The position numbers were made by a program, and so were the translations under genes. The notes beneath the pieces are model-generated. The model was given only the letters and a program-made list of their open reading frames with translations. It was not told where the DNA came from and did no database searches. From IMG/VR virus record IMGVR_UViG_3300042402_005693, positions 1 through 23,325 of that record: 23,325 nucleotides of DNA; one strand, 5' to 3'. The DNA comes from a virus. Below are positions 5,022 to 19,171 of this stretch, in pieces (positions within the stretch are counted from its first letter, which is position 1; each line of letters opens with the position of its first letter).

Positions 5022-6160
5022 AAATCAATCCAAAATACTTCTTCATTGGGAATACCAAAAATTAGTCCATTACCATATAGTGCCTCTAATCTATCTCTTA
5101 CTTCAACATCAATCATATCATAGTCAGTAACATAAACCTTATAATTCTCACCAATCAAATCATGACATAAACGATACTGCTGACTTTCTGTAAGAATATC
5201 TGTACCTTTCTTATAGGTAATATAATGAAAAGCAAAAGGTAGATTTTGAGTGTTCTTTTCAATAAAGTAATTCTTCAAAAACTTTGAGTGTTCATTATTA
5301 AAATTATCTGTGGTCATTCCAAGATTATATTCCAATCCAAGTTTTTCTGCATAGGCAGCAAAAGAACGATTATCTCTTGGTAGGCACGGACCCCCAAATC
5401 CATATCCATATTTTAGAAACTTATTTCCAATTCTGGAATCATTTCCAATAGCAGATAGAACATTATCAATTTCACTTTCCAATCCAGATTTAGTTAAAAC
5501 TTCACCTACCATGTTAGCATAACTAATCTTTGTAGTTAGATAGCAGTTAATTGCAAGTTTTACAACTTCAGCAGCAGTCAAAGACATAAAATTAATCTTA
5601 GGTTCTGTTACCTGAATTTTATGATAAATTTCTTCTATTAAACTTTTAGTGTCTCCTTCTGGTCCGCCAACCAAAACCATATCAGCATATTGGAGATCTC
5701 TTACAATTGTTCCCTGAGCAATAAACTCTGGATTATAAAACACATCTACACCGAAAGCATTCAGTTGAGATTGAAATTGTTCACAATCACCGGGATTGGT
5801 AGTGCATCCGACTACAAGAGATTTTCCATGTACTGGATGATCACACTCCTGAAAATCATTTACAACTTGCCAAACAGAACTTACATCATAACTACCGTCA
5901 GGCAAAGAAGGAGTTGCGACTAGAGTATAAATTAAATCACATTCTAGAATAACTTCTTTGTTGTCAGTCGTTGCTCTAAAGTTCTTAGCAGACTTCAGAA
6001 GATTTTCTACCTCAGATTCGCGTGTATTAATCTCTCTTTCGTTCAAACTATTCACATAATCTTCACGAACGTCTGAAACCAGAACCTCATATCCTGCTTT
6101 TTCTAAAAGAAGTGCGAAACAGATTCCAAGTCTGCCTGCACCAATAACTCCAATTTTCAT
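5018..6160 (-). CDS. UDP-glucose/GDP-mannose 6-dehydrogenase family protein
   Basis: 380 residues. An N-terminal Rossmann motif GAGRLG (7-12) is followed by NPEF (143-146) and the central helix KLAINCYLTTKISYANMVGE (201-220), which holds the conserved Lys and Asn. GFGGPCLPRD (254-263) contains the catalytic cysteine, Cys259. The C-terminal domain has the family's KKGTDILTESQ segment. These enzymes oxidise C6 of a nucleotide hexose to a uronic acid with two NAD+. The family usually has PKD where this has PRD, and NPEFLREG where this has NPEFIAQG, so the substrate may not be UDP-glucose. It overlaps the nadE-like gene by ATGA, which fits a demand for NAD+. Confidence 0.87.
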   Translation of the reverse strand: MKIGVIGAGRLGICFALLLEKAGYEVLVSDVREDYVNSLNEREINTRESEVENLLKSAKNFRATTDNKEVILECDLIYTLVATPSLPDGSYDVSSVWQVVNDFQECDHPVHGKSLVVGCTTNPGDCEQFQSQLNAFGVDVFYNPEFIAQGTIVRDLQYADMVLVGGPEGDTKSLIEEIYHKIQVTEPKINFMSLTAAEVVKLAINCYLTTKISYANMVGEVLTKSGLESEIDNVLSAIGNDSRIGNKFLKYGYGFGGPCLPRDNRSFAAYAEKLGLEYNLGMTTDNFNNEHSKFLKNYFIEKNTQNLPFAFHYITYKKGTDILTESQQYRLCHDLIGENYKVYVTDYDMIDVEVRDRLEALYGNGLIFGIPNEEVFWIDL

Positions 6161-6930
6161 AGTTTAAATGTAGGAATAGAAACCATTTTATGTTTATTTT
6201 GATTATGAAACTTTTTATAAACGTTAACTGCTAAAGTTTGTTCTTCACTCAGGAACATAGGATCTTCGTTGAGACCATCTTCCATTACCCATTCTAACAT
6301 TTCATAAGAAGTACCGATTTGATCTTCATCAGTTCTTCCATCATCCCATAAACCATCAGTAGGAGAGGCATCAATAATGCGTTGATCTACACCAAGATGC
6401 CTGCCAAGTTCCCATACTTCAGTCTTATAGAGATCTGCGATAGGAGCAATATCAACTCCACCGTCACCATATTTAGTATAAAATCCTACACCATAATCTT
6501 CAACTTTATTTCCAGTACCAACAACAATACCACCAACAGAAGTAGAAACTTGATAGAGAGTTACCATCCGAAGACGGGAACGACTATTTGCTAGTGCAAG
6601 TTTATTTGCACCAAATTCTTTTACTGAAAACTGAAAAGTATCAAATACTTTAGTAAGATCAAACTTATTAATAATAACATTACTAAAGTTTGATTGCAAC
6701 CAATTAAGGTGAGCATCAGAAAGTGTTTCTTGTTCTTCTTTTTGATGAATTGGCATTCCAATCGCATATGTTGGAAGACAAGTTTTTGCGGCAAGAGTTG
6801 ACGATACTGCGGAATCAATTCCACCAGATACACCAATAACTAGTGCTTTGATGTTATTAGTATCTGCATATTCTTTTAACCACTGTACTATTCTATTTTC
6901 TAAGTTTGTATAATCAGTAATCCTATTCAT
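6157..6930 (-). CDS. nadE: Ammonia-dependent NAD+ synthetase (NadE family)
   Basis: About 257 residues. The N-type ATP-pyrophosphatase loop SGGIDS (about 35-40) is followed by RSRLRM (about 117-122), GTGNKVEDYG (138-147) and TKYGDGGVDIAPIADLYKTEV (152-172), all hallmarks of NadE, which adenylates nicotinate-adenine dinucleotide and amidates it with ammonia. No glutaminase domain is present. I start at the ATG at 6930; the in-frame upstream TTG at 6939 is less likely. No Shine-Dalgarno is apparent. A NAD synthetase inside a glycan operon is unusual. It could supply NAD+ for the adjacent dehydrogenase, or be a relative used to amidate a sugar acid. The strong match across NadE motifs favours the first. 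Confidence 0.85.
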   Translation of the reverse strand: MNRITDYTNLENRIVQWLKEYADTNNIKALVIGVSGGIDSAVSSTLAAKTCLPTYAIGMPIHQKEEQETLSDAHLNWLQSNFSNVIINKFDLTKVFDTFQFSVKEFGANKLALANSRSRLRMVTLYQVSTSVGGIVVGTGNKVEDYGVGFYTKYGDGGVDIAPIADLYKTEVWELGRHLGVDQRIIDASPTDGLWDDGRTDEDQIGTSYEMLEWVMEDGLNEDPMFLSEEQTLAVNVYKKFHNQNKHKMVSIPTFKL

Positions 6931-6953
6931 TGGAATCAAAAAAACTTTTAACT

Positions 6954-7314: not shown

Positions 7315-8041
7315 AAATCCAATTAGGGTTTCTATACACAAGATTTATCTCGTTATGATATGTATGTTCTTGGTTTGGATGCCTTCTTTGATACATATGA
7401 ATTTCATTATTATGGCAATATTTGTCTATGAGATAACAAATAGATGTACCAACTGTATGAATTTCTGATGCATTTTCAAATGCCTTTATCCAATCAAAAA
7501 CATTAAATCCATTAGATTTATCTTGATGAAGATTCATATAATGAACTTTCTTATCTGTATTCACAGTAAAATTATCAGAGTCATCTGGATCAGTACCAAA
7601 TGCACGATTAACAATTACATAATCACCAGTAAGTTCATAGGTTTTAATTAATTCATTTTCTCTTTCTTCATCTCGAATAACATCAAATGATTTTCTATAA
7701 TCTGAGATAGGAATAGAAAGGAAATAATACTTTGCTGCCATTACTGAACATCTTGGCAAATACCTATCTGCAAAACTTGCAGGAACATAAAGTTCATTTT
7801 CGGTTTGATGAATATTAACGGTTCCATAATACTGCTTTAAAGGAAAATCATCAGATTCTCTAACCCAAATTAAATTATCTTTTTTCAGATACTTTACAAT
7901 CAAGTCATAGTAAACATCGCCTACAGGATAATAAACAGTATATCCTTCATTAATAACCACATCAACAAGTTTTTGGAGCCACAAAACATCACCAAGTCCA
8001 ACTGGTTGGTAGATGAGACAGGTTTTATTTGTAGTAGTCAT
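7301..8041 (-). CDS. GT9/heptosyltransferase-like protein, function uncertain
   Basis: 246 residues. The N-terminus (CLIYQPVGLGDVLWLQKLVDVVINEGYTVYYPV, about 8-40) resembles the first beta-alpha unit of GT9 heptosyltransferases (GxGDxL). Near the C-terminus, ASEIHTVGTSICYLIDKY (191-208) looks like the GT9 strand and helix that bind the nucleotide sugar. It is shorter than true heptosyltransferases (about 320-350 aa), and I see no complete family signature. It may be a reduced GT-B transferase. Two other proteins in this operon (14097-14990 and 14981-15871) show the same type of N-terminus. Confidence 0.6.
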   Translation of the reverse strand: MTTTNKTCLIYQPVGLGDVLWLQKLVDVVINEGYTVYYPVGDVYYDLIVKYLKKDNLIWVRESDDFPLKQYYGTVNIHQTENELYVPASFADRYLPRCSVMAAKYYFLSIPISDYRKSFDVIRDEERENELIKTYELTGDYVIVNRAFGTDPDDSDNFTVNTDKKVHYMNLHQDKSNGFNVFDWIKAFENASEIHTVGTSICYLIDKYCHNNEIHMYQRRHPNQEHTYHNEINLVYRNPNWIYENE

Positions 8042-8861
8042 AACAATCTCTAATTCCTTTTTCTAAACCATCGTATTCTATACATTCAATACTATTTGGA
8101 TATCCACAATATGGATACTCTTCATAATTGCCTTTTTTGATAATTTCGACCTTATGATCTGAAAGATTATTGATCATACTCGCCATTTCGCTGAGATAAT
8201 ATTTGTCTTTATATACGCAATTAACATCATTAATCATGGATCTTTTGCCTATAGATAAAAAATAACTAATAATTTTATACAAGTCATTAGCATAGATAAA
8301 ATCCATTTTTCTATCTTTGAAAATTTCTATATTTCTTTTATTAATATAATTATTAATATTTGTATTAAAAAATCTACTCGACTCCTCATAAGGACCAAAA
8401 CATCCAAAAATGCGAAGATTAATTCCTTTTGGATGATTTAAAACTCTTTTTGATATACAATACTTTGAAAATCCATAGTTATCTCCAGGAACAACTAATC
8501 CAAAATCATTAGGGGATGGTTGCTCCACAGGTGCTGGACGACCATAAGAAGCACCACTATCTAGATTAATAAAAAGTTCAGTCTTCTCAACATGTCTGAA
8601 AATATTTTCAAACATTGCCATATTTTTATAAAAGACACTTGGACCATCTTCTACTTCTCGGCGGCCGCCAATAATAGCTCCGTGAATAATTGCATAATAT
8701 TTTTCATCCGTAAATAAGGAATCTACCTCACTAGTAATTTCCAATCTAACTTGATGAGATCTAGGTCTTACAACTTCCCAACCTTCTTTTTCTAAAAGAG
8801 GAATAATCTGCCGACCAATAAATCCATTGCCACCAGTAAATAAAATTTTATCTCTTTTCAT
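8025..8861 (-). CDS. NAD(P)-dependent epimerase/dehydratase (extended SDR)
   Basis: 278 residues with the SDR cofactor motif GGNGFIG (10-16) and the catalytic Tyr129-xxx-Lys133 (NYGFSKYC). The substrate half is short. This enzyme could reduce or epimerise a nucleotide-4-ketosugar. It is placed directly after the split transketolase and the RfbH-like dehydratase, so it is a candidate for the reductase that completes their product. It is not a close match to classical GDP-fucose synthase, and the sugar specificity cannot be assigned. It starts by an ATGA overlap with the transketolase half. Confidence 0.75.
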   Translation of the reverse strand: MKRDKILFTGGNGFIGRQIIPLLEKEGWEVVRPRSHQVRLEITSEVDSLFTDEKYYAIIHGAIIGGRREVEDGPSVFYKNMAMFENIFRHVEKTELFINLDSGASYGRPAPVEQPSPNDFGLVVPGDNYGFSKYCISKRVLNHPKGINLRIFGCFGPYEESSRFFNTNINNYINKRNIEIFKDRKMDFIYANDLYKIISYFLSIGKRSMINDVNCVYKDKYYLSEMASMINNLSDHKVEIIKKGNYEEYPYCGYPNSIECIEYDGLEKGIRDCYDYYK

Positions 8862-9334
8862 CTTTTTAAATTGATATATGTCGGTTTTTCATTATAAAGA
8901 AAAGATTTAATATCAACATCTTCTGCTGATTGTGGATGATAAACTTCAATACCTGGAAGTGCTTCTAAGACTTTTAAATCTTCAAAAGCATAGTGTGAAA
9001 ATCCACATGGACCATAATCATCATTTCTTCCACTACCAACTAGTTTAACTGGAATTTGTTCATAGTGCAAATAATTACGAATAAACTCAAATGGTCTGTA
9101 AAGAACAAAAGGAGTAATTGAATAGCAAACAGGAATTTTACCTTCTAAAGCAAAACCAACTCCCATACCAATCATGAGTTGCTCTGCAGCGCCAGGATTA
9201 ATAACCCTGTTTGGAAATTCTTCTCTAAGGTGATCGAAAACCTTATAACCAACATCTCCAACTAAAAGAACAATGTTTTCATTATTCTTCATTTCTTCAG
9301 TGAGAAGCTCTTGAAATCTACGTCTCATACTCAT
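8858..9334 (-). CDS. Split transketolase, pyrimidine-binding (second) subunit
   Basis: A 158-residue protein equal to the middle (PYR) domain of transketolase. Glu51 in NPGAAEQLMIGMGVGFALEG (46-64) is the conserved glutamate that activates thiamine diphosphate. YSITPFVLYRPFEFIRN (71-87) matches the transketolase YSTF..R segment. The third, C-terminal transketolase domain is absent, as in other minimal split transketolases. It is joined to the first half by ATGA. The pair is probably a heteromer that moves a two-carbon ketol unit, plausibly onto a keto-sugar in this setting. Confidence 0.85.
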   Translation of the reverse strand: MSMRRRFQELLTEEMKNNENIVLLVGDVGYKVFDHLREEFPNRVINPGAAEQLMIGMGVGFALEGKIPVCYSITPFVLYRPFEFIRNYLHYEQIPVKLVGSGRNDDYGPCGFSHYAFEDLKVLEALPGIEVYHPQSAEDVDIKSFLYNEKPTYINLKR

Positions 9335-9948
9335 AGCGATTCAATTGCCTCCAGATATTGTTTTTCAGTAAAGTTAATATAATGCGCGTCTAATCCACTT
9401 AAACCAAAGTGTTCAACGGAAGTTCTGACAAAATTTACATCAGGATTAAACACTTTAATTCTATCTTCAAGGTAATTTAAATCCACTGGATCATATGCCG
9501 CCCAACCATTTGCATTGACATATATTTTGAGATTAGTAACATTTTTTTCATGAGCGAATCTCAATGCTTCCCAAACAGATCCTTCTGCACACTCACCATC
9601 AGAAATCATACAGTATACATTTCTATTTGGATTTGCTAACGCTCTTCCAACTGCAACGGTAATACCCATTCCCAGACTTCCGGTTGAGCAATAAATCTTA
9701 TCCAATTCATTCCTTTTTGGATGCTCTCCGTATTTTTCAAGAAGGTTTTCAGCATCTAGTCCATAATACTTTTCCAAAATAACATAAAGAGCAACTGCAG
9801 AATGCCCATTAGACAAGATAAAAATATCATCCTCATTCATGGACTGATATATCTTGTCTAAGGTATGTAAGCAAGAAAAGTAACTACCCAAATGATGTAA
9901 TTTATTTCTATAACAAACATCAAGTAGTCTGCGATAAAGAGTTTTCAT
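9331..9948 (-). CDS. Split transketolase, thiamine-diphosphate-binding (first) subunit
   Basis: 205 residues covering the PP domain of transketolase: LHHLGSYFSCLHTL (17-30), ILSNGHSAVALY (44-55; usually SKGHA), STGSLGMG (88-95) and the diphosphate/Mg2+-binding ISDGECAEGSVWEALRFA (115-132), ending near Asn145. The usual GDG is SDG here, a mild deviation; the metal-ligand Asp is kept. It overlaps the RfbH-like gene by ATGA and the second half by ATGA, so all three are probably translated together. Alternatives are 1-deoxyxylulose-5-phosphate synthase-like or sulfopyruvate-type TPP enzymes; TGSLG and EGxxWEA favour transketolase. Confidence 0.86.
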   Translation of the reverse strand: MKTLYRRLLDVCYRNKLHHLGSYFSCLHTLDKIYQSMNEDDIFILSNGHSAVALYVILEKYYGLDAENLLEKYGEHPKRNELDKIYCSTGSLGMGITVAVGRALANPNRNVYCMISDGECAEGSVWEALRFAHEKNVTNLKIYVNANGWAAYDPVDLNYLEDRIKVFNPDVNFVRTSVEHFGLSGLDAHYINFTEKQYLEAIESL

Positions 9949-11252
9949 TTTCTAAAAGACGAAACAACAAAACTAATATATTCAATCATAGCATCACTAA
10001 TAGTAGGTGAACATCCAACAAAAAATACTAGATCAAGAACATTAGAAGCATTTGGATATTTATTATAATCGTCAAGAGACTTATATCCAGGATGCATTAA
10101 AATATTTCCAGCAAAATAATTTCTTGTCTGGATTTTATTATCTTCAAGATGTTTTACAAGTTCTCTTTTAAGATTTTTATCGGAACAGATTATAGGAACA
10201 CCGAACCAACTTGTTTCAGCCTGAGGTAATTCATTTACACTACGAACTCCAGGAATTTTCTCAAAGATTTCCTGCAAACGAACTTTATTAAGTCTACGAA
10301 TATAATGAATCTCATCGAATTTTTCTAATTGCACAGACCCAAGAGCACCCTGAAAATCAAGTGGTTTTAAATTATATCCCATGTGATCATAAACATACTT
10401 ATGATCAATAATCTCATCATAACCAACTAACCACTTATCAAACCTTTTACCACAAACTCCACATGAAAGGAGATTTTGTTGACCAACACAGTAGCAAGCA
10501 CGACCCCACCAGGCAATGCTACGAGCGATGCTAATCAGTTCCTCATCATCAGACGAAACCATGCCGCCCTCACCAGTACAAATGTGATGAGCAGGATAAA
10601 AGGAACAGGACGCTGCAACAGCATGATCAGTTAGATATCTACCATTCCACTTACTTCCAAGTGAATCACAATTATCTGCAATCAAAAGAAGGTTATAAGA
10701 ATCACAAATATCAAGAATTACATCATAATCATAAGGATTTGCAAGAACTGGAGATGAAAAAATTGCTTTGGTTTTAGTTGTTATTTTCGATTCGATTTCA
10801 CTCAAACTCCAGTTTAAGTCACTAAAATCAATATCAACAAAAACTGGTTTCAATCCATTTTGAACAATCGGAGCAATAGTGGTAGGAAATCCAACACAAG
10901 ATACAATAATCTCATCACCATCAACCCATCCAAATCTTTTTTTAAGAGCAGCAATCATTACAAGGTTGGCAGAACTACCAGAGTTTACCATCAAAGAATG
11001 CTTTTTATTAAATTTCTTAGAAAAAGATTTCTCAAACTTGTTTACTTCTTCACCAGATGCAATCCACTTACCAGTAAGGAAAGATTTTAAAATCACTTCA
11101 ATTTCATCATTGTTCCAATATGGACCAGAATAATAAACAGGAGATTTTCCTGGAGTAAATTCTCCACTGTTAGCAAGATATGGAAAAAGATTTTCTTCAG
11201 TAGAAGAAATGTTCTCAAGGAAATCTTTAATTAGACTGTTAATGTTGCTCAT
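9945..11252 (-). CDS. RfbH/DdhC-type PLP and [2Fe-2S] 4-keto-6-deoxyhexose 3-dehydratase
   Basis: About 435 residues of the aspartate-aminotransferase fold. SFYPAHHICTGEGG (about 217-230) has histidine where aminotransferases have the PLP-binding lysine. This is typical of CDP-4-keto-6-deoxyglucose 3-dehydratase (E1), which removes the C3 hydroxyl through a PMP cofactor. A cysteine set fits the E1 iron-sulfur motif CX57CX1CX7C: Cys195, Cys253, Cys255, then Cys264 (one residue further) and Cys267, followed by GKRFDKW as in E1. The start at 11252 avoids overlap with the preceding gene; an in-frame ATG at 11303 exists. No glucose-1-P cytidylyltransferase or CDP-glucose 4,6-dehydratase lies in the window. 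The product should be a 4-keto-3,6-dideoxy sugar once reduced. Confidence 0.88.
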   Translation of the reverse strand: MSNINSLIKDFLENISSTEENLFPYLANSGEFTPGKSPVYYSGPYWNNDEIEVILKSFLTGKWIASGEEVNKFEKSFSKKFNKKHSLMVNSGSSANLVMIAALKKRFGWVDGDEIIVSCVGFPTTIAPIVQNGLKPVFVDIDFSDLNWSLSEIESKITTKTKAIFSSPVLANPYDYDVILDICDSYNLLLIADNCDSLGSKWNGRYLTDHAVAASCSFYPAHHICTGEGGMVSSDDEELISIARSIAWWGRACYCVGQQNLLSCGVCGKRFDKWLVGYDEIIDHKYVYDHMGYNLKPLDFQGALGSVQLEKFDEIHYIRRLNKVRLQEIFEKIPGVRSVNELPQAETSWFGVPIICSDKNLKRELVKHLEDNKIQTRNYFAGNILMHPGYKSLDDYNKYPNASNVLDLVFFVGCSPTISDAMIEYISFVVSSFRK

Positions 11253-11262
11253 AGATGAAAGT

Positions 11263-12114
11263 TTATTTTGTGATTTTATCAATATAGTCCAATGCTTCTT
11301 CACTTACAGCAGTTCTAAACCACTTACGAAGTCCACCACTAGACCGATTTAATTCTGCCGCCAAAGACCCACCTGCTTGGTGCAATACTTTCACTACCAT
11401 TCTATCACCATTTACAGGATCGTCAAGGCATAGTTGTCCGTCTTGAACATACAGGTCTCTCCAACTATCCCAGTGCGTTTCGATTCCCCAAGTATTACAA
11501 ACCCCATAAGAAAGACCCGTTCCCATTAAGTCTAAAATTTTAGTGGAATACTTACCCCAATGAAACAACTGATTTAAAGTATCCTGCTCGTCTCCAAGTC
11601 CATGAAAATATGGGTCAACTTCTGTCTTTATCATATAAGCTTCTTCATTTAAATTATGCCAGTCATACCAGAATTCTTTATTGTTTGATGCAATAAATCC
11701 AGCGTTTATAAATTGCTGAACTGGAATTGGATTCCCATTTCCAAAAGGAGGAAGGTGTGCAATTGTAATTCCTTGATGAGAACTTGCTTTACCTAGTGAA
11801 TTATTATTTCTCACACCGATAATGTCTTCTTCACTCTCAAATAACTCAGTTAAAGGTCCAGTGACAACAGAATCACCATCAATGTGAACAACCATATCAT
11901 AATCATTAATATATGGCATACAAGTTGGAGCCATCATCCAAACGGGTTTGAGCCAAGGGTCTTTTACCTTAGATTCCTCAGTCATTTTTGAGTCAAAAAT
12001 AAAAAAATCAATGTCAGGATGAAAATGTTTAAAGGATTTAACCAAATCCTCAACTCCAATCAAATCAACATAATCATCAGTACACCAAGTAGTGACTGCA
12101 ATTTTTTTAGACAT
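11263..12114 (-). CDS. GT8-like glycosyltransferase (GT-A fold)
   Basis: About 283 residues. KIAVTTWCTDDYVDL at the start and DMVVHIDGDSVVTGPLTELFE (about 73-93) with the DxD metal motif DGD are typical of GT-A retaining transferases related to GT8. FINAGFIASNNKEFW (about 137-151) matches the NSGVxxxN region that lines the donor site. No signal peptide or membrane segment, so it is probably cytosolic or peripheral. The ATG at 12114 lies 2 nt after the previous stop; the TTG at 12120 is in frame but less likely. Donor sugar unknown. Confidence 0.75.
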   Translation of the reverse strand: MSKKIAVTTWCTDDYVDLIGVEDLVKSFKHFHPDIDFFIFDSKMTEESKVKDPWLKPVWMMAPTCMPYINDYDMVVHIDGDSVVTGPLTELFESEEDIIGVRNNNSLGKASSHQGITIAHLPPFGNGNPIPVQQFINAGFIASNNKEFWYDWHNLNEEAYMIKTEVDPYFHGLGDEQDTLNQLFHWGKYSTKILDLMGTGLSYGVCNTWGIETHWDSWRDLYVQDGQLCLDDPVNGDRMVVKVLHQAGGSLAAELNRSSGGLRKWFRTAVSEEALDYIDKITK

Positions 12115-16977: not shown

Positions 16978-18141
16978 TCAAATATTGTCAAGTATATCAG
17001 ACAAAACTTTCATTTGATCTTGTGTAACAAAATGATTATTGCCGACATAAACACCACTTGTATGTAGAGTCTCTACATTAAGTTTTTCTTTTTGAGTACA
17101 GACTTCATACTTATTAAATGCTGGATGTCTCAAAAGATTTCCACTTACAATAGGTCTGTGCTCAATACCCTTAGAATCAAATATTTCTTTTAGTCTGTTC
17201 ATATTTGAAGGATCTTTACACACTATTGGAAAACAAAAACTGCTATTTCCAACTTTATATTCTGGAATATAAAACTTATGTCCATTACGAGCAATAGATG
17301 AGAAGAAATCTTTATAGTTTCTTCTGCGAATTTCAATCATATCATCAAGTCTTTTTAACTGAGATATTCCAAGAACAGCACATACCTCATGATTTCTAAA
17401 ATTATATCCATCAGTTATAAACAAAAATTGTTTTGAGATATCTGAATTTTCTCTGATATACTGCACAAACCTTTCTGGACTAGATTCTCTTGCCATTCCA
17501 TGACTACGCTTCATACGCATAAGTTCATAGAGATCTTTATTATTAGTGCAAACCATTCCGCCTTCAATAGTAGTCATATGATGACCAAAGTAAAAACTAA
17601 AGGTAGCACCAAGAGAATCTTTTCCTCTACGAATTCCTTGAGTATTTTCTACACCATGAGATTCACAGATATCTTCAAGTATAAGAGCATTTGGAAATAA
17701 CTCTTTATATTTTTCAACGTTAGCAGAAATACCAAGAAGATGCGTGATAAAAATTGCTTTTACATCAGGATGTTGTTCAGAAATATACTTAAGATCATCT
17801 TCATCAAAACTAAAATTCTTAAGATTCACATCACAAAAAATAGGAGTAAGTCCTGCTTGAATTACAGGAGCAACATTCGTTACCCAAGTGCAGGCAGGCA
17901 CAATAACTTTATCTCCATCTTTTAACCCATAGAGTTCTTTTGCTGAAGAGATTAAAAGTGAGTTTGCAGTGCTTCCAGAAGAAACATACAAAGAATATTC
18001 GCAACCCAACCATTTCGACCATTCATTTTCAAACTGCTTTACTTTAGGTCCATTAGTAAGACGACTAGTAAACAACAGAAACTTTGCCATCTTGAACCTA
18101 TCGGCAAAGGTAATGGTATCTTTCATTAAAGGCCAATACAT
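16978..18141 (-). CDS. GDP-4-keto-6-deoxymannose 3-dehydratase-like (ColD-type)
   Basis: 387 residues of the aspartate-aminotransferase fold. SFYFGHHMTTIEGGMVCTN (182-200) has His187/His188 where aminotransferases carry the PLP lysine, the hallmark of ColD. ColD uses PLP and glutamate to remove the C3 hydroxyl of GDP-4-keto-6-deoxy-D-mannose on the way to GDP-colitose. SSGSTAN (54-60) and LLEDxCESHG-like LILEDICESHG (153-163) are the usual cofactor contacts. It has no cysteine cluster, unlike the RfbH-type gene at 9945. A strong Shine-Dalgarno (GGAGG) lies 7 nt before the ATG. It directly follows GMD, its substrate producer. A perosamine synthase (Per) is excluded by the missing lysine. Confidence 0.88.
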   Translation of the reverse strand: MYWPLMKDTITFADRFKMAKFLLFTSRLTNGPKVKQFENEWSKWLGCEYSLYVSSGSTANSLLISSAKELYGLKDGDKVIVPACTWVTNVAPVIQAGLTPIFCDVNLKNFSFDEDDLKYISEQHPDVKAIFITHLLGISANVEKYKELFPNALILEDICESHGVENTQGIRRGKDSLGATFSFYFGHHMTTIEGGMVCTNNKDLYELMRMKRSHGMARESSPERFVQYIRENSDISKQFLFITDGYNFRNHEVCAVLGISQLKRLDDMIEIRRRNYKDFFSSIARNGHKFYIPEYKVGNSSFCFPIVCKDPSNMNRLKEIFDSKGIEHRPIVSGNLLRHPAFNKYEVCTQKEKLNVETLHTSGVYVGNNHFVTQDQMKVLSDILDNI

Positions 18142-18163
18142 TTATTTTCCTCCAATAAAAGAA

Positions 18164-19171
18164 TCAAAACCGTTGCTCATTCAAGCACATATCTCTAACA
18201 AGTTCATCAAAAGAAATTTTAGGTTGCCATCCAAGTTTTTCTCTTGCTTTAGTTGAATCACCAATAAGAGTATCAACTTCAGATGGACGGAAGTATTTCT
18301 CACTTACTCGGATTACAACTCTATCACTTACAGTATCGATACCAACCTCATCAAGACCTTCACCTTCCCAACGAATGTTCATACCAAAGTATGGAGCACA
18401 TTTTTCAACAAACTCACGAACAGAGTGTTGTTCATCAGTTGCAATCACATAATCGTCAGGTTCATCTTGTTGAAGCATCAACCACATTGCTTCAACAAAA
18501 TCTTTTGCATGTCCCCAATCACGTTTTGCATTTAGATTTCCTAGGTGAATACAATCCAATAAACCTGCCTTTACTTTAGAAAGACCAATTACTACCTTAC
18601 GTGTTACGAAAGTTTCACCTCTTCGCGGAGACTCATGATTAAAAAGAATTCCAGAACTGGCGTGAATGCCCATCGATTCACGATAGTTTTTAGTAATCCA
18701 ATGTCCGTATAGTTTTGCCACGCCATATGGAGAACGTGGATAGAATTGTGTGGTTTCTTTTTGTGGAATTTCTTGAACCAAACCAAACATTTCAGAAGTA
18801 GATGCTTGATAGAAACGTACATTTTTCTCCATACCTAAAATACAAAGACTATGGAGAATTCTAACTGTTCCAAGTGCATCAACTTCTGCTGTATATGCAG
18901 GCATTTGGAACGATACTTTTACATGACTTTGTGCAGCAAGATTATAAATTTCAGTTGGTTCTACTTCTTGAATTACGTGAAGAATATTAGTCGAATCCGT
19001 AAGATCTGCATGATGCAAAACTACATCCTTTGATAGATGATCGATTCTAACATTATTAATAGATGAACTCCTTCTTATTGTACCATGTACTTCATATCCC
19101 TTACTTAAAAGAAGTTCTGCAAGATATGAACCATCCTGTCCCGTAATACCAGTAATAAGTGCTCTTTTCAT
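18164..19171 (-). CDS. gmd: GDP-mannose 4,6-dehydratase
   Basis: 335 residues, full family length. [12 protein letters not shown] (8-19) is the NADP-binding loop. STSEMFG (124-130) gives the catalytic Thr/Ser and Glu, and SPYGVAK (147-153) the Tyr149/Lys153 pair. [15 protein letters not shown] and [13 protein letters not shown] are also typical. It converts GDP-D-mannose to GDP-4-keto-6-deoxymannose, the branch point to GDP-fucose, GDP-rhamnose, GDP-perosamine and GDP-colitose. It is the first gene of the glycan operon, driven by a perfect-consensus promoter. No GDP-fucose synthase of classical type is recognised downstream, so the ColD-type dehydratase next to it is the likeliest user. Confidence 0.95.

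Follow-up and report, generated by a model that had tools for sequence, protein, structure and literature searches.

In a 23.3-kb virus fragment from IMG/VR (record IMGVR_UViG_3300042402_005693, positions 1 to 23,325; hereafter the window), whose gnd, tRNA, GDP-mannose 4,6-dehydratase (GMD), and porin regions are similar to those of Synechococcus cyanomyophages, a quartet of overlapping genes encodes an RfbH/DdhC-type dehydratase (DehH), the PP and PYR halves of a minimal split transketolase, and a short-chain dehydrogenase/reductase (SDR3). With a probability of roughly two in three, we propose that the quartet supplies the late steps toward a branched deoxy sugar, probably destined for a surface glycan that the phage encodes, in which the PP:PYR heteromer would carry out ketol branching at C4. 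The gene families, the catalytic residues, the exchange of enzymes within one gene slot, and the co-occurrence described herein can be read directly from the sequences, and the logic of the proposed pathway is well supported by comparison, namely by the co-occurrence of DehH, thiamine diphosphate (ThDP) enzymes, and SDR, by the exchange among three unrelated classes of ThDP enzymes, and by a precise swap between related phages. The features concerned are as follows (comparative loci carry L numbers).

11252-9945, minus strand: DehH, 435 aa, RfbH/DdhC-type nucleoside diphosphate (NDP)-4-keto-6-deoxyhexose 3-dehydratase of the pyridoxamine/pyridoxal 5'-phosphate (PMP/PLP) fold
9948-9331, minus strand: PP, 205 aa, ThDP diphosphate-binding half of a minimal split transketolase
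9334-8858, minus strand: PYR, 158 aa, pyrimidine-binding half of the split transketolase
8861-8025, minus strand: SDR3, 278 aa, candidate keto-sugar reductase of the extended SDR type
8862-9948, strand unassigned: swapped segment, exactly PP and PYR, at the position of the YerE-like and PanB genes in L127-type phages

All three junctions (DehH/PP, PP/PYR, and PYR/SDR3) are ATGA overlaps, and the four frames are intact with their catalytic residues retained. For DehH, the open reading frame listing gives a GTG start at 11303, and the ATG at 11252 agrees with the start in relatives. The gene content that an initial annotation, made from the sequence alone, had assigned to 8025-11252, comprising a dehydratase with His for Lys and a C-X57-C-X-C motif, two transketolase halves, and an SDR joined by ATGA, was confirmed.

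The best solved relative of DehH was Yersinia E1 (PDB 3bcx, E=1.8e-74), in which the residue replacing the Schiff-base (PLP-binding) Lys aligned with H222 of DehH, the first His of a PAHH motif and invariant in 13 homologues. The cysteines for the [2Fe-2S] iron-sulfur (Fe-S) cluster are arranged as C195-X57-C253-X-C255, and C195, C253, C255, and C267 were likewise invariant in the 13 homologues. The spacing to the fourth Cys is X11 (C267), or X8 if counted to C264; that of E1 is X7. DehH matched the NCBIfam RfbH model NF011936 at 2e-109 with 366 bits, below the curated cut-off of 423, which a non-cyanophage relative, L112, cleared with 467 bits.

The two short proteins encoded downstream matched Transketolase_N (PP, PF00456, 1.8e-10) and Transket_pyr (PYR, PF02779, 2.3e-19) in Pfam, and among solved structures they came closest to the split transketolase of Carboxydothermus, PP to its chain 6yak (9.9e-27) and PYR to its chain 6yaj (6.2e-26). 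An AlphaFold model of PP (pLDDT 92) also gave 6yak as its top fold match. The third transketolase domain is missing from both halves. H19, H49, and H76 of PP as well as E51 and H114 of PYR aligned with the active-site His residues and the catalytic Glu of transketolases, and were invariant in 13 divergent sequences, as were H189 and the DGE...N motif of PP. H189 is probably the counterpart of the fourth His of the PP domain, a match made less secure by the PDB alignment, which ends before that residue. R4 and R158, the latter being the last residue of PYR, were also invariant and occupy the positions of the two phosphate-site Arg residues; for all these His, Glu, and Arg positions we assume the roles generally ascribed to them in transketolases. 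The counterparts of E. coli S385, H461, and D469 were lost according to the alignment, G102 standing for H461 and C110 for D469. We take these E. coli residues to serve 2-hydroxyaldehyde phosphate acceptors, H461 and D469 presumably contacting the acceptor. With the active-site His and Glu residues kept and the acceptor residues changed, the chemistry of PP:PYR thus resembles the transfer of a ketol out of a ketose (phosphate), with an altered acceptor side. The pair, with its PP and PYR domains on adjacent genes and the ThDP site, His, and Glu of transketolases, is of the transketolase type, and thus not an acetolactate synthase (ALS)-like single chain having three ThDP-enzyme domains such as YerE. 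Among deposited phages, the transketolase (TK) pair had no close match, the hits being distant transketolases that came from bacteria or from human-gut contigs.

SDR3 belongs to Pfam PF01370 and has GxxGxxG, S102, and the YxxxK pair (Y129-K133) intact, all invariant in the SDR alignment. Its model (pLDDT 93) was closest in fold to reductases of GDP-4-keto sugars, namely GDP-L-fucose synthase and two heptose C4 reductases of Campylobacter, MlghC and Cj1428. In the SDR tree, the distribution of DehH was tracked closely (4 changes versus 21.5 with shuffled labels), and that of an HldE-like gene set found in some relatives was not. The best NCBIfam match of SDR3 was HldD, although weak (40.9 bits); an HldD role was considered and ranked lower after the SDR tree and the fold search.

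A second search, anchored on DehH, yielded 80 viral loci; each scan returned the best 80 viral loci, and phage DehH loci in the collection number more than 590. In the TK-pair loci treated below, DehH was counted strictly by the PAHH motif within 10 kb, a 200-bit cut-off alone having also taken four 380-aa proteins without PAHH (L084, L087, L097, and L107). YerE-like enzymes were present in 43 of the 80 DehH-anchored loci, pairs resembling the E1 component of pyruvate dehydrogenase (PDH) in 11, the TK pair in 7, and two classes together in a single locus; every one of 20,000 random draws contained more such doubles. The remaining 18 loci, which had none of these enzymes, were mostly short contigs, and where both flanks were complete, 30 of 35 loci contained a ThDP enzyme. 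This enzyme lies between or beside DehH, an RmlB-like gene, and the SDR, and SDR3 immediately follows the ThDP gene(s) in 65/77 TK, 36/48 YerE-like, and 9/13 PDH-like loci. Anchoring the co-occurrence test on the RmlB-like gene was uninformative, as this gene goes with the module in any case (70/80 with DehH), and GMD was thus taken as the control anchor. In the 80 GMD-anchored loci, a YerE-like or TK enzyme was found in 4 of 8 with DehH versus 0 of 72 without it (Fisher p=4e-5); the later PDH model also matched one of these control loci, L327.

The YerE-like protein of L127 had JanthE as its best solved relative (8rph, 377 bits versus 243 for the next). In L127:11305-13858, L123:10486-13200, L141, L144, L151, L157, L160, and L162, a YerE-like gene is followed by one for a PanB family protein, the two lying either between DehH and SDR3 or next to these genes; L123 holds the TK pair, the YerE-like gene, and PanB all together. 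PanB of L127, a ketopantoate hydroxymethyltransferase family member (TIGR00222, 285 bits, above the cut-off), could make a hydroxymethylated 2-oxo acid such as the one that ErwE prefers as donor. The PDH-like pair came to light through unexplained 1.1-kb gaps ahead of SDR3; such E1 alpha/beta-like pairs (about 207+177 aa, far shorter than known E1 subunits) precede SDR3 in L174:11320-12491, L201:11317-12473, L215, L152, L154, L159, and L163.

The exchange is displayed most directly by L127-L132, which are colinear with the window nearly gene for gene and mostly 82-98% identical (best match), with DehH of L127 and that of the window being 82% identical. Their cassette reads DehH - YerE-like - PanB - SDR, that of the window DehH - PP - PYR - SDR, and the former also occurs within more divergent clusters (L133 and L134). 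The DNA match of the window to L127/L128 ends near 9945-9975, at the end of DehH, and returns at 8861-8865, at the start of the SDR, and the match to the cyanophage TK loci L047/L048/L050 begins at 9948, the first base of PP. Furthermore, the SDR of the window was placed within the DehH+YerE clade, and its TK pair within a DehH-less cyanophage clade as the sister of L047. Taken together, these borders and trees suggest, as the simplest reading, that DehH and the SDR kept their sugar and that a different enzyme took over the addition of carbon. The same placement of the TK pair, and the fact that the window is the sole case of DehH with TK seen within the cyanophages, would also suit a neutral or non-functional recombinant, in which an exchange with cyanophage TK clusters inserted the TK pair behind DehH and ahead of the SDR without the genes acting jointly. 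Such an accident appears quite improbable to us in view of the gene-exact borders, the preserved ATGA couplings, the four intact frames with catalytic residues, and the recurrence of the combination in 36 divergent non-cyanophage loci.

This recurrence emerged from the TK-pair loci. A first comparison covered the 26 viral loci with the nearest TK pairs, and a wider scan with the PYR alignment 12 genome-labelled and 80 viral loci (92 in total). PP and PYR occurred together in 92/92 loci, adjacently in nearly all (a gene intervenes in L079 and L089), and the pairing is thus not due to chance. The nearest 26 loci were mostly cyanophage clusters with the order FkbM methyltransferase - PP - PYR - SDR, and DehH was found only in L023. 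From these loci and from full cyanophage contigs without DehH, it was at first concluded that DehH is uncoupled from the TK pair, a view overturned for non-cyanophage loci by the wider scans: outside the cyanophage-like group, DehH was present in 36/61 TK-pair loci, an RmlB-like gene in 41/61, and both in 32/61. The initial annotation had proposed a route to a 4-C-branched 3,6-dideoxy sugar, to be doubted if homologues of DehH and of the TK pair never co-occurred elsewhere; with the 36 loci, that ground for doubt falls away. The co-occurrence of DehH, ThDP enzymes, and SDR in many divergent phages and the slot exchange support the route in part, the keto-sugar acceptor, the donor, and the nucleotide carrier being putative. 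Of the CDP-glucose genes (RfbF and RfbG), whose association it had suggested looking for, none was recognised within the 23-kb window.

Some of the loci carry cellular labels. In L039:7963-10468, a Candidatus Actinomarina single-cell contig, DehH, PP, and PYR are adjacent, and this host-labelled copy may be bacterial rather than viral. Metagenome-assembled genome (MAG) contigs labelled Planctomycetaceae, Euryarchaeota, Maricaulis, and Thaumarchaeota (L035-L037, L041, L042, and L044) have phage-like clusters, some of the Planctomycetaceae and Euryarchaeota loci being colinear with cyanophage clusters; these are probably viral contigs mis-binned with cells.

As to the supply of the keto sugar, two further genes of the window are of relevance.

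18164-19171, minus strand: GMD, GDP-mannose 4,6-dehydratase (TIGR01472, 525.7 bits, cut-off 415)
16978-18141, minus strand: ColD-like second DegT-family protein (Pfam PF01041), FGHH with His for Lys

GMD is the sole 4,6-dehydratase in the window, where the RmlB-like gene is absent, and is a candidate source of the 4-keto-6-deoxy sugar. The ColD-like protein has no Fe-S cysteine motif and accompanies GMD in L127-L132. GMD and the ColD-like protein (16978-19171) make up a GDP-colitose-type route in the same cluster, and the phage thus has two different 3-dehydratase candidates. The RmlB-like protein of the relatives scored 302 bits on the dTDP-glucose dehydratase model versus 75 on the CDP-glucose one, suggesting that the nucleotide may differ from the CDP of yersiniose. 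Elsewhere in the window, an SLH-domain porin-like gene (183-1649) is closely related to genes of L007-L010 and L015 and has a counterpart in Synechococcus phage S-SRM01 that is annotated as a porin, and an NAD+ synthase gene (6157-6939, TIGR00552 above the cut-off) lies within the sugar cluster and is retained in L127-type relatives; its product may be an ATP-dependent amidating enzyme rather than one for NAD synthesis.

For the donor, acceptor, nucleotide, order of steps, product, and fate of the sugar, we infer the following scheme. A 4,6-dehydratase (GMD in the window, the RmlB-like protein in most relatives) would yield an NDP-4-keto-6-deoxyhexose, from which DehH would strip the C3 hydroxyl with electrons from a host reductase to give an NDP-4-keto-3,6-dideoxyhexose. 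The PP:PYR heteromer would then move a two-carbon ketol (hydroxyacetyl) unit from a ketose phosphate or hydroxypyruvate to the C4 ketone, generating a tertiary alcohol, SDR3 would reduce the ketone of the new branch, and the glycosyltransferases of the cluster would transfer the finished sugar. The known or proposed sugar-branching ThDP classes are YerE-like enzymes, PDH-like aKADH2 pairs, and split transketolases (PMC12247030), i.e., the same three classes as found here, which makes 4,6-dehydration, 3-dehydration, C4 ketol transfer, and SDR reduction the best-supported explanation. On balance we also lean, with less assurance, toward the more specific proposal that a ketone-accepting PP:PYR gives a 4-C-(1,2-dihydroxyethyl)-branched sugar after SDR reduction, and that phages swap the three ThDP modules (YerE-like with or without PanB, PDH-like pair, and split transketolase) to alter the glycan branch.

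Several points weigh against the proposed branching pathway. The action of split transketolases on ketones is still unproven anywhere (PMC12247030). Several of the contigs are near copies, so that the loci are not independent and the counts overstate the number of independent events. In 12 DehH phage contigs of 27-230 kb, no DdhD/E3-like reductase (PF00175) was found, although a host reductase could stand in as the electron partner. DehH was absent from all 31 other cyanophage-like TK-pair loci, the TK lineage of the window itself, and cyanophage TK contigs of up to 126 kb contained no 4,6-dehydratase, only a GDP-mannose-3,5-epimerase-like SDR; this lineage must thus work without a phage-made keto sugar, its substrate perhaps being a sugar of the host or a sugar phosphate. 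Moreover, in a TK clade without SDR3 (L075-L080, L086, L091, L096, and L109), the pair stands mostly beside a PfkB kinase, a KdsC-like phosphatase, and a nucleotidyltransferase, in some cases fused to an RpiB-like domain, which fits ordinary transketolase use.

Accordingly, PP:PYR might be an ordinary, stripped-down transketolase on sugar phosphates (e.g., sedoheptulose-7-phosphate toward NDP-heptose or similar), with the SDR as an HldD-like epimerase and DehH as a neighbour only through the shared glycan cluster. Retention of the His residues of transketolases and of counterparts to two phosphate-site Arg residues would suit this role, as would the weak HldD match of the SDR and the order in many cyanophages, where FkbM-PP-PYR-SDR' is followed by an HldE-domain-like nucleotidyltransferase and kinase, a HAD protein, and a cupin (TIGR02199 and TIGR02198 matches). 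This HldE-like set, however, also lies behind DehH-YerE-PanB-SDR3 without the TK pair (L133 and L134), indicating a separate module, and is absent from the window. Since, in addition, the SDR tree agrees with the distribution of DehH rather than with that of the HldE-like set, the nearest folds of the SDR are keto-sugar reductases, and the exact occupation of the YerE slot by the TK pair would be left unexplained, we regard this alternative as unlikely. As a separate observation, a sugar nucleotidyltransferase-RpiB-like isomerase fusion (by eye), preceded by PfkB and KdsC-like genes, is followed by the TK pair in L020:6829-9108, L021, and L075-L078, a set that possibly represents an NDP-sugar route from sugar phosphates.

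Two other points against the branching pathway concern the fate of the 3-deoxy sugar. The product of GMD may feed the adjacent ColD-like enzyme instead of DehH, and DehH occurs without a recognised neighbouring ThDP enzyme in L135, L136, and Synechococcus phage S-H68 (L030), the protein identity to DehH of the window being 75% in L135/L136, and the DNA identity for S-H68 being 69% across one third of the query. DehH may thus also serve an unbranched 3,6-dideoxy sugar. That DehH and the SDR of the window make such a sugar (colitose- or paratose-like), the ThDP enzymes acting on another sugar or a shared precursor, would be in line with these loci and with the GDP-colitose route formed by GMD and the ColD-like protein. 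It is nevertheless highly improbable, considering that SDR3 directly follows the ThDP gene, not DehH, in most loci, that the ThDP enzymes are strongly associated with DehH, and that their classes are mutually exclusive.

The kind of pathway, in which an RfbH-type dehydratase, a ThDP branching enzyme, and a reductase cooperate, is already known from yersiniose of the Yersinia O-antigen (DdhC/E1, YerE, and a ketoreductase). A 3-dehydratase of the Fe-S His-for-Lys type, a ThDP enzyme for C4 branching, and then a reductase are likewise encoded in one operon in the window and the comparative loci. In contrast, YerE is one ALS-like chain acting on pyruvate, the window has a two-gene minimal transketolase in a phage, and neither CDP-glucose genes nor an E3 reductase were recognised with the phage quartet. 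YerE accepts CDP-3,6-dideoxy-4-keto-glucose as a substrate, and ErwE takes 4-hydroxy-2-oxobutanoate and longer donors (PMC12247030); JanthE is a characterised YerE-like carboligase using ketones (PMC12188165, PMC12247030). Among such erwiniose/caryophyllose-type enzymes (ErwE, MMAR_2332, and JanthE), the JanthE-nearest enzyme with PanB holds in L127-type relatives the very slot that the TK pair holds in the window. The aKADH2 pairs branch antibiotic sugars (PMC12247030); AviB1/AviB2-type pairs (avilamycin and paulomycin) are two-subunit ThDP enzymes for a C4 acetyl branch, and a minimal PDH-E1-like pair sits in the same slot in L174, L201, L215, and others, although this class is not present in the window. 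Split transketolases have been proposed to put the hydroxyacetyl branch on a keto sugar in the miharamycin and amipurimycin clusters, and another 13 putative sequences are named, every one of them of Streptomyces origin. Ketone-accepting transketolases have so far been suggested for Streptomyces clusters only and await demonstration in vitro, and no RfbH-type partner has been described for them (PMC12247030). The Carboxydothermus enzyme (6yak/6yaj) shares the PP/PYR split and the active-site His and Glu, but has chains of 309+341 aa versus the 205+158 aa of the phage halves, which have lost the third domain and the acceptor-side residues.

In the open-licence literature (a weaker basis than a full literature search), no earlier report of phage RfbH with transketolase, or of phage branched sugars, was found. 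What is new here is the split transketolase in a branching role beside an RfbH-type dehydratase, the spread of the module among phages, and the three-way exchange of ThDP modules. A catalogue of marine auxiliary metabolic genes (AMGs) excluded contigs with lipopolysaccharide (LPS) islands ahead of analysis (PMC11360552), and phage sugar pathways of this kind would thus be missed there. The present results suggest that marine phages encode branched-sugar pathways, probably for a surface glycan, and provide dozens of compact natural candidates for a ketone-accepting transketolase, for which a keto sugar is the likely partner and nature has already performed a swap experiment, rendering this little-noticed phage sugar chemistry directly testable.

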